Assembly (NCBI GenBank): GCA_018267475.1
Contig: JAFDYI010000007.1
Span: 1 to 56,372, forward strand
Length of the DNA: 56,372 nucleotides
Origin: Bacteroidota bacterium
Lineage (GTDB): Bacteria > Bacteroidota > Bacteroidia > B-17B0 > Aurantibacillaceae
Direction: 5' to 3'
Position 1 is the stretch's first letter. Each line of letters starts with the position of its first letter. A program made the position numbers and the translations under genes. The notes under the pieces were generated by a model that saw only the letters and a program-made list of their open reading frames with translations, did no database searches and had not been told where the DNA came from. This document shows, in pieces, positions 4,223 to 7,975 of this stretch.

Positions 4223-4603
4223 TTAAAACAAACTCATTTGGTCTCTATCTTCTTTTTTTATTTTTGGCTTGTGTATTTTTTCTTTAATAGGTTCGGTAAA
4301 TATTTCTTGTCGTTTTTCTGTTTTGGCAACAATGGTTTCTATATTTGCAATGGCAAGTTCTATTTCGTTGGGTGCATCGGGTATGTTATTTTCTGCTTTG
4401 TAAATACGCGCTTCTATTATTTGACTGCGCCACGCTTCAAGCAACTCTAAAGAGTTTGTGTTTCTTTTTTGCTCCGCCAACTCCATTTGTAAATGAACGG
4501 TGTTTAATTTTTCTGATAAAACAGCATCGGGCAACGCAGCCAGGTAATTTACGTTTGCTTCTGCCTTATCAATTGCTTCTTGTATGCGGGTGTGGTTACT
4601 CAT
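4223..4603 (-). CDS. Small restriction-modification-associated protein ending in a clamp-binding-like motif
   Basis: I do not recognise a named family in this 126-residue protein. It is highly charged and predicted largely helical (residues 1-95), with a basic linker (KEKIHKPKIKKEDRD). It ends exactly in QMSLF, which fits the bacterial sliding-clamp-binding pentapeptide (QLSLF/QLDLF type). Its ATG overlaps the stop of the DUF559 gene by four bases (ATGA), so it is the last gene of the methylase operon. A DNA-targeting accessory that tethers the system to replication is inference; a specificity or stability subunit is equally possible. Confidence 0.6.
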   Translation of the reverse strand: MSNHTRIQEAIDKAEANVNYLAALPDAVLSEKLNTVHLQMELAEQKRNTNSLELLEAWRSQIIEARIYKAENNIPDAPNEIELAIANIETIVAKTEKRQEIFTEPIKEKIHKPKIKKEDRDQMSLF

Positions 4604-4607
4604 TGCT
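4596..4607 (-). repeat. 12-bp direct repeat, downstream copy
   Basis: On the minus strand this reads AGCAATGAGTAA and is identical to 5072-5083. It spans the start of the small clamp-motif gene. The two copies bracket the DUF559 gene exactly and resemble a target-site duplication. Confidence 0.7.
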
Positions 4608-5079
4608 GTTTATGTCCCCCTCTTTGAGGGGGATTAAGGGGGAGGCGTTCCTCCAATTCTTTAATAGTTAAATATATATTTTGATTTACCTGTTTTATGT
4701 TTTTCAGCACATCTTCATCGGTAAACCGTATAACGTTAAATCCGGCGTCTTCTAATTTTTTTTGTCTTACGATGTCTTTTTTAATTACTTCTTGCAGTGT
4801 ATGTGTATATCCATCAACCTCTATTATAAGGTTAAGTTCTTTGCACATAAAGTCTGCAACAAAATTTAAAACAGGGCGTTGCCTGTTAAATGTATAACCT
4901 GTTTGTTTGGCTTTTAATACATACTTCCATAGGCAGGCCTCTGCCTTGGTCATAGTATAACGCAAGTTGTGGGCAGTAGTTTTTAGTTTTGGGTTATAGT
5001 GGTGGTGGTTTGGTATAACCTCCCCCTTGCCCCCTCCTGAGGGGGACAGGTTTTGCTGTATGCTGATGTCATTACTCAT
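4600..5079 (-). CDS. DUF559 (Vsr-like) endonuclease
   Basis: The 159-residue protein contains the DUF559 core at residues about 30-143, with LRYTMTKAEACLWKYVL, the FNRQRPVLNFVADF strand and IIEVDGYTH. The Asp of ADF and the Glu/Asp of EVDG are the expected metal ligands of this Vsr/PD-(D/E)XK-like fold. Residues 12-21 (SPSGGGKGEV) and 146-156 (LPLNPPQRGGH) are not part of the fold: they are translated copies of a GC-rich palindrome in opposite orientations. The gene overlaps the upstream methylase by eight bases and the downstream gene by four. It is a nicking or double-strand nuclease by family; its substrate is unknown. Confidence 0.8.
   Translation of the reverse strand: MSNDISIQQNLSPSGGGKGEVIPNHHHYNPKLKTTAHNLRYTMTKAEACLWKYVLKAKQTGYTFNRQRPVLNFVADFMCKELNLIIEVDGYTHTLQEVIKKDIVRQKKLEDAGFNVIRFTDEDVLKNIKQVNQNIYLTIKELEERLPLNPPQRGGHKQQ
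4615..4645 (-). repeat. GC-rich palindromic element, copy C (inverted relative to A and B)
   Basis: The core CCCCCTC-TTT-GAGGGGG can form a 7-bp hairpin, and a further arm (AAGGGGGAGG) follows on the plus strand. It encodes the C-terminal LNPPQRGG of the DUF559 protein. Its orientation is opposite to the copies at 5017 and 6320. Confidence 0.8.
5017..5046 (+). repeat. GC-rich palindromic element, copy A
   Basis: The element has an arm CCTCCCCCTT followed by the hairpin CCCCCTC-CT-GAGGGGG. It matches copy B at 29 of 30 bases and is translated in frame as SPSGGGKGEV near the N-terminus of the DUF559 protein. Confidence 0.8.
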
Positions 5080-5083
5080 TGCT
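5072..5083 (-). repeat. 12-bp direct repeat, upstream copy
   Basis: On the minus strand this reads AGCAATGAGTAA. It spans the last codons of the methylase and the start of the DUF559 gene, and is identical to 4596-4607. A strong Shine-Dalgarno-like GGAGG lies just upstream in the methylase codons. Confidence 0.7.
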
Positions 5084-7975
5084 ACCTCCTTCCACGATTT
5101 TAATTTCCTCGGGGCTTAATTCATACAACTCATAAACTAACTGGTTTATTTTTTCTTCGCTGTATTCTATGCGTTGTTTTAGCTGCTCAATTTTTGTAGG
5201 CAGTTTTTCTTCTTTAATTTCTTCGTTTAGTTTTAAAAGTAAATCAACGTGTTTTATGATTTCTTCACCAATTTGTTTTTTAATTTTGGAATCTAACAAG
5301 CAAATAGGAAGCTGTTTTACATTAATAGCTTTAACTTCTGCAAACGCTTTCCCTTTCTCAGGCATCAACTTCCCATAAACAAAATCTATTAACTTGGAAT
5401 TAAGAATCCCTAACAAGAATTTTAAATCTATGGGCTCAAAATCATTTAATATACAATGAGTAGAGTGCCTTGAAATATATTGCTTTTCGTCAAGCGTGGC
5501 GATTATTTTATCAGAAGTCTGACGTATGATAATTTTCGGCGTATTAAATATCCTTGAATCTCTTAATGCAAAATCAATTTTATTCTGTTTTGTGTCAAGG
5601 TCTTTTAGCTTAATCCTGCCTCTAATAGTAGGGTCATAGTTTATCCATAATCCTTTCCAATTTGTGCAGTATCTATTTATATCCTTTCCCTCCAGAATTT
5701 TTTTGTACGTCTTCCCCTGTGATTTTTCTGAAAGAAGAACCTTAGCTACATTTCCCGTATTTACTCCATTATTTACTGAACAGAAAAAATCAAGTTTTTC
5801 CCCATGAAGATATATTTTATTAAGAACTTTTTGGAAAATTGGATTCGTGAATGAAAATGATTTATTTTCTCCAATTAGAATTTCTTTTTGATTTATTACA
5901 ATAGGCTTTTTATTAGAAAATTCATTCGCCTCATTAATGTCATAACAGTTTATTTTCGGGTTAGACTCTTTTAAGTTTTCAAACACAGAAATAAAAGTAC
6001 CTCCAGTCGTTGCATCTTCAAAAACTTCGTAGTTAATTTTATTGAGAAAATGTATTTTACTGTTTTTAGTAAAATGCTCACGCAGTTTTCTATAATAAAT
6101 ATTATCTATAAAGGTACGCGGAACAATAAAGCTAACTAATCCATTTTCTTTTAAAATCTTTAAGGCTTTTTCATAAAAAAAAGCATATAAATTGGGTTTA
6201 TAATCATTAGATAAATATCGCGAAAGTAAATAGTCAACTTCGGGTTTTAAAAACAAAGTATCTTCCTTTCCCCCAATGGTTACATAAGGCGGATTACCAA
6301 TAACTACATCAAAGCCGCCAACCTCCCCCTTGCCCCCTCCAGAGGGGGAAAATACCTGCGGAAATTGTTTTTTCCAAGAGAAAGGTTTTATCTTTTTTTC
6401 AAAACCTAAATCAATTTCATTATCGTAAAAATCGGTATCAATTAAGCTATTTCCATCTTTAACGTTATTATCTAAATCGGGTAGTACTCTTTCGTGAAAT
6501 AAACTTATTTGCTGTTTAATGCTGGCTTCGGTTTCGCCTTCCATACATTTAAGCAATAAGCTAAGTTTACTTACTTCTACGGCATTGGCATCTAAATCAA
6601 CACCATAAATGTTATTAATAAGTATGTGTTTTTTTTCGTGTGTGGTTAAAGTGCCTTGTGGTGTAAAAGGGTTGTCTTTTCCTTTTTTATCGGCATAGCC
6701 TTTTTGGTGGTACCAATTTATATGGTAGTTTAATAGATACTCAAAAGCGCCTAACAAAAAAGAACCACTGCCGCAAGCCGGGTCAACAATTTTTATTTTT
6801 TCAATTTCTTTGGGTGTTTTGCCGTCAATAAGTTTGCCTACGGTGTTTTTTACAATATAATCTACTATGTATTGTGGTGTATAAAAAACGCCGCCTGCTT
6901 TACGCACTTCAGGTTTTTCTTCAATTTTTACCCCACGTGCAGGGGTAATGCGTATTACTTTACCTAAAAATTGTTCGTAAGCGTTACCCAGTATTTCAAC
7001 CGGCATTACACTAAACTCAAAATTGCATTTTGGGTAATACAACTCATCAATAACATTTTTAATAACCTTGTTATCTATTTTAAGTATGGGCGTAATAGTA
7101 TCTTTTTCAAAGTCAAACAAACCGCTGTTGTATTTATCGTCAGCCTGTTTAAATAAATCAAGTAAATTAGTATAAGCGTTACCCTTTGATGCGGCTTGTT
7201 GTAACTGCCCGTAAGGCTCAATAGAGCGGTCTTCGCAAAAGCGCAGAAAAATTAAACGGTCAATAGTTTGCTGAACGGTGTAGTTTAACTCTTCGTCGTT
7301 TATTTTTTTATTATTTACAACAAAACTTGTGGCTAGGTATTTACGCCATTGGTCTAGGCTTTGTACAAAGCGTTTATCGAGCGTATCAGTTCCTTTTTTG
7401 TTGGCACTGCCTTGTATAAATTTATCAAAGCGCCCTTTAGTAACGGCTTCGTGGCTAAAGGTATCGTATATAAAATCAAATTCTTTTATATAGTCTTCAA
7501 AGCCAATATATTTTAAACGCGCCACCGTTGCGCTATCGTTTAAGTTAGGAACTTTAGAGCAATCGTAAACAATAAAATCTTCAAAATTGGTAAGGATAGA
7601 AACGTGCGCCTGTGCGCTGCTTCCATAACGCCTTAATTGGTAGGCAGATTCCTTATTTGTTTTAATAGCAACCGAAGGCTTTTTTGCCTCTACATAAAAC
7701 AATCTTTTTTTGCCGCTGCCCGATAAACGAAAACCATAGTCGGGTGCTTTTGCTTTGCCGCGCACCACCACTTTGTCTTCATAAATTACCTCTCGGTATG
7801 CTTCGCTGTCGCCTTTTTCGTTATCAATATCCCAACCCAATGCTTTAAAAAATGGATTAATAAAATCCTGTCTTGTTTTTTGTTCGTTGTATTCGGGCAG
7901 GTGGTATTCTTTGCGATGTTCGGCAAAACGCGCTACGAGTTTGGTAATAATTGATTTTGCTTCTTCGCGAGTCAT
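5072..7975 (-). CDS. Single-chain restriction-modification enzyme (HsdR_N nuclease plus N6-adenine methylase, type IIG-like)
   Basis: The 967-residue enzyme starts with a type I HsdR N-terminal-like nuclease domain: PDY at residues 78-80 and EAK at 96-98 give the PD-(D/E)XK signature. The Eco57I/TaqI-like methylase follows, with SAM-binding DPACGSGSFL at about 398 and catalytic NPPY at 561-564. The C-terminal 350 residues (NGVNTGNVAK, ISRHSTHCIL, KQLPICLL) look like a TaqI-type target-recognition domain with a coiled-coil end. It should methylate adenine and cut at one recognition site. Residues 543-552 (SPSGGGKGEV) are an in-frame palindrome insertion shortly before NPPY; the reading frame is otherwise intact. 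First gene of a three-gene operon. Confidence 0.85.
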   Translation of the reverse strand: MTREEAKSIITKLVARFAEHRKEYHLPEYNEQKTRQDFINPFFKALGWDIDNEKGDSEAYREVIYEDKVVVRGKAKAPDYGFRLSGSGKKRLFYVEAKKPSVAIKTNKESAYQLRRYGSSAQAHVSILTNFEDFIVYDCSKVPNLNDSATVARLKYIGFEDYIKEFDFIYDTFSHEAVTKGRFDKFIQGSANKKGTDTLDKRFVQSLDQWRKYLATSFVVNNKKINDEELNYTVQQTIDRLIFLRFCEDRSIEPYGQLQQAASKGNAYTNLLDLFKQADDKYNSGLFDFEKDTITPILKIDNKVIKNVIDELYYPKCNFEFSVMPVEILGNAYEQFLGKVIRITPARGVKIEEKPEVRKAGGVFYTPQYIVDYIVKNTVGKLIDGKTPKEIEKIKIVDPACGSGSFLLGAFEYLLNYHINWYHQKGYADKKGKDNPFTPQGTLTTHEKKHILINNIYGVDLDANAVEVSKLSLLLKCMEGETEASIKQQISLFHERVLPDLDNNVKDGNSLIDTDFYDNEIDLGFEKKIKPFSWKKQFPQVFSPSGGGKGEVGGFDVVIGNPPYVTIGGKEDTLFLKPEVDYLLSRYLSNDYKPNLYAFFYEKALKILKENGLVSFIVPRTFIDNIYYRKLREHFTKNSKIHFLNKINYEVFEDATTGGTFISVFENLKESNPKINCYDINEANEFSNKKPIVINQKEILIGENKSFSFTNPIFQKVLNKIYLHGEKLDFFCSVNNGVNTGNVAKVLLSEKSQGKTYKKILEGKDINRYCTNWKGLWINYDPTIRGRIKLKDLDTKQNKIDFALRDSRIFNTPKIIIRQTSDKIIATLDEKQYISRHSTHCILNDFEPIDLKFLLGILNSKLIDFVYGKLMPEKGKAFAEVKAINVKQLPICLLDSKIKKQIGEEIIKHVDLLLKLNEEIKEEKLPTKIEQLKQRIEYSEEKINQLVYELYELSPEEIKIVEGGSNE
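6320..6349 (+). repeat. GC-rich palindromic element, copy B, inside the methylase
   Basis: The element is identical to copy A apart from one loop base (29/30). It is read in frame as SPSGGGKGEV eight residues before the NPPY motif, so the element has inserted without breaking the gene. The hairpin core is CCCCCTC-CA-GAGGGGG. Confidence 0.8.

Follow-up and report, generated by a model that had tools for sequence, protein, structure and literature searches.

A DUF559 nuclease gene of a Bacteroidota bacterium lies in a compact, putatively mobile cassette bounded by inverted hairpin units

The window analysed here (the whole 56,372-nucleotide stretch of contig JAFDYI010000007.1 of a Bacteroidota bacterium) contains three consecutive reverse-strand genes, encoding an Eco57I-type methylase, a DUF559 nuclease and a 126-aa protein, together with three hairpin units and a pair of direct repeats.
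4223..4603, reverse strand: 126-aa gene directly downstream of the DUF559 gene, with the C-terminus QMSLF, at the insertion target
4581..4607, reverse strand: copy A of the 27-nt direct repeat, covering the start region of the 126-aa target gene; this copy is the ancestral one (start kept in relatives)
4600..5079, reverse strand: DUF559 ORF, 159 aa, with its ATG in one direct-repeat copy and its TGA in the other (PF04480, E=3.6e-30)
4608..5056, reverse strand: DUF559 cassette, 449 bp, consisting of a hairpin unit, the DUF559 coding part and an inverted hairpin unit, with the 27-nt direct repeats at its bounds; missing in five relatives
4613..4645, no strand assigned: hairpin unit on the 3' side of the DUF559 gene, TGTCCCCCTCTTTGAGGGGG + ATT + AAGGGGGAGG
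4663..4989, reverse strand: DUF559 (Vsr/EDxHD-fold) nuclease domain with conserved D46, E57, D59 and H63
5019..5048, no strand assigned: hairpin unit 5' of the DUF559 gene, in opposite orientation to the 3' unit, coding for SPSGGGKGEV
5057..5083, reverse strand: direct repeat copy B, 27 nt, methylase end and DUF559 start
5072..7975, reverse strand: Eco57I-type methylase gene, 967 aa, upstream neighbour of the DUF559 gene
6322..6349, no strand assigned: third hairpin unit, without a nuclease, in frame in the methylase between FPQVF and GGFDVVIGNPPY; missing in relatives
The 126-aa target protein has no Pfam match; its C-terminus QMSLF (4223-4240), encoded beside a restriction-type methylase, resembles a sliding-clamp binding motif.

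The sequence TTACTCATTGCT (AGCAATGAGTAA on the coding strand) occurs exactly twice in the window, at 4596 and 5072, as the initial annotation had reported. That annotation had read the two copies as a 12-bp target duplication; the duplication stands, but its length is 27 nt, with 23/27 positions identical between TGTATGCGGGTGTGGTTACTCATTGCT (4581-4607) and TGTATGCTGATGTCATTACTCATTGCT (5057-5083), compared to a best value of 20 among 1,494 random pairs of 60-bp neighbourhoods in the window. The decay of the duplication to 85% identity argues that the window insertion is not a recent one. The opposite orientation of the two hairpins was also borne out: the outer ends (TGTCCCCCTC at 4613-4622 and GAGGGGGACA at 5039-5048) are perfect inverted copies of each other, and so are the inner tracts (AAGGGGGAGG at 4636-4645 and CCTCCCCCTT at 5019-5028). 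With up to three mismatches allowed, CCCCCTCNNNGAGGGGG has five matches versus 0.48 expected, and none of 100 shuffles reached as many. The third hairpin copy (6322-6349) codes for the same SPSGGGKGEV as the DUF559 N-terminus. The 2.76-Mb genome (99% complete) has no CCCCTC..GAGGGG hairpins beyond these three in the window, and its single DUF559 gene sits among them. A different palindrome, CCCCTGC(ACG/GTG)CAGGGG, has three copies in the same genome (G000:C13:15509, C33:39361, C33:42501), away from the DUF559 gene.

For the empty-site comparison, the methylase was searched in 60 relatives. Five of these (G429, G435, G430, G421 and G413; loci L045, L046, L047, L051 and L052) carry the methylase followed directly by the 126-aa homologue, without DUF559 between them, which is the empty junction that the initial annotation had predicted. 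The G429 junction, GGAGGTAATAATGAGTAAAGATG, is the overlap of the window minus the cassette. The start of the target gene is therefore ancestral, and the DUF559 frame starts and stops in the two duplicate copies. The 27-nt length of the direct repeat and the empty site rule out that the repeat arose from convergent start sites. The third hairpin is likewise missing in relatives, which read FPxVFKQGGFD versus FPQVF-SPSGGGKGEV-GGFD in the window, and the matching FPEVF loop of a related methylase (G043, L018) holds hairpin linkers together with a complete DUF559 domain. Elsewhere, a decayed DUF559 with a hairpin lies behind the target gene (G406, L048), and an inverted hairpin pair without a nuclease lies behind a methylase homologue (G428, L050). 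One of the empty junctions (L046, G435) holds a different repeat behind the methylase, GATCCTTCGACAGGCTCAGTACGAGATC, inserted without a frame shift into the opening codons of the target gene; this repeat occupies the junction that holds the DUF559 cassette in the window.

The DUF559 alignment keeps D46, E57, D59 (nearly) and H63, and its profile matches 3hrl and 3r3p. The best structural matches of the predicted model (pLDDT 88) are 3hrl and the homing nuclease I-Bth0305I. In a Thermosynechococcus study of inteins, a DUF559 gene was assigned to the EDxHD homing family (PMC9403480). A Caulobacter DUF559 protein is reported to be needed for a DNA damage response in methylase mutants (PMC12907096), so proteins of this family are able to act on DNA inside the cell.

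DUF559 matches were found in 222/395 sampled Bacteroidota genomes and were strong in 162. To describe their surroundings, 111 Bacteroidota loci were chosen by DUF559 score, regardless of hairpins, and a generic C/G-run hairpin detector was applied to 300 bp on each side of the domain. A hairpin was present upstream in 84/111, downstream in 81/111, on both sides in 70/111 and on at least one side in 95/111, compared to 3/29, 1/29, 0/29 and at most 4/29 in an HNH control from the same phylum. The enrichment around other Bacteroidota DUF559 genes that the initial annotation had anticipated is thus present. Hairpin density was 0.40 per 50 bp beside the domain versus about 0.01 far off, and 300-bp flanks held 1.0 hairpins for DUF559 versus 0.07 for HNH. 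Of 80 named loci in a second set, 76 had a hairpin on one side or more and 54 on both; because this set was found with relatives of hairpin-flanked loci (four closer queries), it is biased and its rate is not an unbiased estimate. Outside Bacteroidota, 20/23 DUF559 loci agree (including loci of Nitrospirae, Marinimicrobia, Chloroflexi, Alphaproteobacteria, a CPR bacterium, Brocadia and Cloacimonadota), and two cyanobacterial plasmid copies are also hairpin-flanked. In a Neisseria gonorrhoeae record (L323, 2505-2637), two C/G-rich hairpins lie downstream of the DUF559 gene, and there is none of this kind in the 350 bp upstream.

The two ends of a cassette belong together. Across 179 loci, the upstream flank scored a median of 33 against the reverse complement of its own downstream flank and 18 against that of another locus (p~1e-54), and in genomes with several DUF559 genes the own end pair beat the mean of the others in 35/44 cases. 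In the end unit, a spacer separates the hairpin (CCCCT..AGGGG or a variant of it) from a G-tract tag, which is mostly GGGGTGTGT or GGGGTGGGT. A plain inverted-versus-direct contrast within loci gave no difference (p=0.87), as the loci often have long direct repeats as well. The tag points inward in most stand-alone genes (125 versus 44) and outward in most embedded ones (31 versus 8; p~1e-9), which may put one simple mechanism for both in doubt. The end units come in two designs, with the tag outside the hairpin in most embedded cases (L024, L026, L032, L042) and inside it in most stand-alone ones (L037, L264, window).

Direct repeats directly outside the hairpins exceeded the 99th percentile of mismatched pairs in 25/98 stand-alone loci. 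The cleanest duplication (L283) has 54 identical bp with the hairpins directly inside; compared to 27 nt in the window, lengths elsewhere are about 20-75 nt. Two genomes each contain a pair of similar cassettes at different positions: L264 and L267 of one Chloroflexi genome share 476 bp at 90% with largely unrelated flanks, and L142 and L167 of G078 share 490 bp at 85% with unrelated flanks. At many loci there are arrays, or else direct repeats of 70-160 bp with hairpins inside them, and recombination could have produced these. At five loci (L173, L192, L039, L033, L143), the DUF559 gene lies between 110-160-bp hairpin-containing direct repeats, like miniature elements on each side. A scan of 72 loci for excisions that restore an ORF recovered mainly embedded cases and added little for stand-alone ones.

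Hairpins and nuclease are also linked at the genome level. Defined as at least 10 hairpins and at least three times the reversed-pattern control, with one narrow hairpin pattern, enrichment was found in 49/162 genomes with DUF559 versus 4/233 without, and the within-family odds ratio was 13 (p=1e-5; permutation p=2e-4). By the single pattern used, 113/162 genomes with DUF559 were not enriched and four without it were; both counts speak against the mobile-element reading. Hairpin units without a nuclease occur both solo and paired: G211 contains 163 hairpins, many of them as inverted pairs about 75-170 bp apart, and one such pair (L330) has the same hairpin and tag as the DUF559 cassette L208 of that genome.

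In 40 of the 111 loci, the DUF559 domain lies within an ORF of at least 300 aa. Pfam matches of 20 host ORFs include B12-dependent methionine synthase (MetH), leucyl-tRNA synthetase (LeuRS, two sites), methylmalonyl-CoA mutase, a GATase_5 (PurL-type) protein, HisA, coproporphyrinogen oxidase and N-formylglutamate amidohydrolase, as well as HsdR, HsdM, Eco57I and type ISP methylases, an M23 peptidase and a UvrD-type helicase. Comparison of filled forms with empty homologues set the insertion points in MetH, in which filled forms carry about 135 extra residues, and in LeuRS. In embedded cassettes, the inverted hairpins at the ends code for linkers (e.g., GCCCCCCAGCCCCCAAAGGGGGAG). The ten loci searched held no Rfam intron family, and the Pfam hits of the 20 host ORFs included no intein domain; these two results speak against residence in an intron or intein and leave free-standing homing forms unaffected.

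Occupation of one host site can be patchy. In one genus, 5 filled MetH genes are isolated among 30, requiring 5 changes on the host-gene tree, all of them forced by well-supported branches; as far as gene trees go, the pattern is compatible with gain or with loss and does not separate them. On the nuclease tree, host genes are clustered (13 changes versus a shuffled mean of 35). The LeuRS editing-domain entry loop (L117, L118, L119, L123, L127) contains DUF559 in some genera and other repeat-like peptides elsewhere (RHTERSRS, HAELVEAPQ, VIASEAKQS), and it looks, from the sequences compared, like a general hot spot for in-frame repeats.

Several known systems resemble these cassettes in part. 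As in REP/RAYT systems (TnpA-REP; REPtrons, REPINs), inverted short hairpin repeats flank the enzyme gene, solo or inverted-pair copies occur without the enzyme, the hairpin type is tied to its own enzyme and occasional copies lie inside genes (PMC3733652, PMC8266576). The REP/RAYT likeness drawn in the initial annotation holds for this architecture but not for the enzyme or the tags. There, the enzyme is an HUH (Y1) tyrosine transposase, whereas here it is a Vsr/EDxHD-fold nuclease, and the window's genome contains no Y1 transposase (PF01797). The palindromes of REP/RAYT systems are tagged with GTAG/CGTC, but only 7/295 hairpins flanking DUF559 have such a tag beside the foot (GTAG 3/295, CGTC 4/295). 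A RAYT origin of the hairpins is ruled out by the missing transposase and the lacking tags. In addition, DUF559 cassettes differ in their long direct duplications and in the presence of whole cassettes in frame inside essential genes. They resemble EDxHD/Vsr homing endonucleases (I-Bth0305I) in their nuclease, whose domain and fold are homologous and whose acidic and His residues are conserved, and in their distribution, with lineages tied to particular host genes and a patchy filling of one site. They differ from these in that no intron (Rfam) or intein domain (Pfam) was found at the DUF559 loci searched, in their inverted hairpin ends and hairpin-only derivatives, and in a nuclease that apparently stays in the host protein. 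The cassettes combine a REPtron-like architecture with homing-like lineages, but a defining feature of each is missing, and we therefore file them under neither.

Rickettsia palindromic elements and other in-frame palindromic repeats also place short palindromes in frame in protein genes, but the repeats at DUF559 loci bracket a nuclease gene, a candidate mobiliser. In phage T4 MobA/gene 60, a nuclease and a hairpin-bearing insert jointly form a mobile cassette, as at DUF559 loci, although the nuclease belongs to another family and the reading frame at DUF559 loci simply runs through the insert. Terminal inverted repeats, seen in the window and across the 179 loci, are shared with classical DNA transposons and insertion sequences, but the DUF559 duplications are long and variable, not short and of fixed length. 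Unlike a Vsr repair partner of a cytosine methylase, the window gene has an Eco57I/N6-type neighbour and no linked cytosine-5 methylase, and relatives lack the nuclease.

We propose, with a probability of roughly 60%, that the DUF559 gene is a compact mobile element in which a Vsr/EDxHD-type nuclease ORF lies within inverted hairpin units that the nuclease putatively recognises and nicks. The mobile unit itself, self-contained as the initial annotation had it, is well supported by the inverted ends, the 27-nt duplication, the empty sites and the hairpin enrichment elsewhere. All three outcomes that the initial annotation had named as refuting its idea went the other way: some homologous operons lack DUF559, the site occurs empty, and other DUF559 genes are enriched in flanking hairpins. 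Sequence comparison establishes a cassette between inverted hairpins with a duplicated target at a site empty in relatives. It also shows that most DUF559 loci are built alike, that hairpin units occur apart from the nuclease and that the same host sites have been filled in frame repeatedly. As the best reading of these comparisons, we infer that the Vsr/EDxHD-fold nuclease itself moves the hairpins. The nuclease would recognise the hairpin unit (as a folded strand or cruciform) and nick or cut there and at the target, where offset nicks and repair synthesis would yield the long, variable direct duplications. In the window, the doubled start region of the target gene gives the nuclease a start codon, with the next gene keeping its own. 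Hairpin units that lack a nuclease may be mobilised in trans, much as RAYTs are believed to move REPs. Cassettes would also settle in frame within essential proteins as an extra domain, which is possible because the units read as Pro/Gly-rich linkers, often without stop codons, and related nucleases within host proteins would keep to one site in a homing-like manner.

The main rival, which we consider unlikely, is a homing nuclease that does not recognise hairpins: it would cut the unoccupied site and be copied in by break repair, with the hairpins as passive landing pads, frame-keeping linkers or translation insulators. The fold and sequence kinship to I-Bth0305I, the placement of a DUF559 gene in the EDxHD homing family (PMC9403480), the host-gene-specific lineages on the nuclease tree and, in one genus, the five filled MetH genes that stand isolated with the insertion at the same site all fit such a nuclease. 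However, three findings are not expected from homing: most loci have inverted hairpins at both ends, hairpin units have spread apart from the nuclease, and hairpin number goes with DUF559 at the genome level.

Alternatively, another agent could spread the hairpins, and DUF559 could prefer them as a target, or both could gather at insertion-tolerant sites, so that the association would reflect shared sites. Consistent with this are hairpin-only insertions where DUF559 sits elsewhere (the methylase loop), the entry of other repeat families into the LeuRS loop and the hairpin-containing direct repeats that flank some DUF559 genes. We nevertheless regard it as improbable: the window's genome has three hairpin units but no Y1 transposase, genomes with DUF559 are hairpin-enriched within families too, and the ends of one cassette match each other above other cassettes of the same genome. 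That the nuclease is an ordinary part of a restriction-modification operon, serving as the cutting or repair partner of the methylase with the hairpins and repeat as incidental terminators and convergent starts, is suggested by the Eco57I-type neighbour and by DUF559 domains in HsdR, HsdM and type ISP genes. As the sole explanation it is already contradicted, and highly improbable, given the five relatives with the operon but without DUF559, the 27-nt duplication and the same cassette in LeuRS, MetH, HisA and other metabolic genes.

Extended to the family, the proposal of a nuclease acting on its own hairpin units leads to a broader idea towards which we lean slightly, that DUF559 nucleases may supply the missing mobilisers for C/G-rich hairpin repeats, taken as one bacterial superfamily. 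Such elements would form a class of their own that a Vsr/EDxHD nuclease drives: forms with the nuclease would be autonomous and solo or paired hairpins non-autonomous, target duplications would be long and variable, and the elements could reside in frame in essential proteins without splicing. In the open-access literature we found no earlier description of such an element, though one may have been missed. According to PMC3733652, CGTC palindromic repeats are not associated with transposase genes, and repeats without a known mover are therefore a recognised gap. A mobile cassette accounts for the unexpected nuclease domain in MetH, LeuRS, HsdR and other proteins of some species, which matters for annotation. 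If the proposal is true, a mobile element would use a homing-type nuclease in place of a known transposase, and very small nucleases with natural hairpin specificity would be on offer. The DUF559 family is widespread, as are the unexplained C/G-rich hairpin repeats of bacterial genomes; the link between them gives both a testable role.
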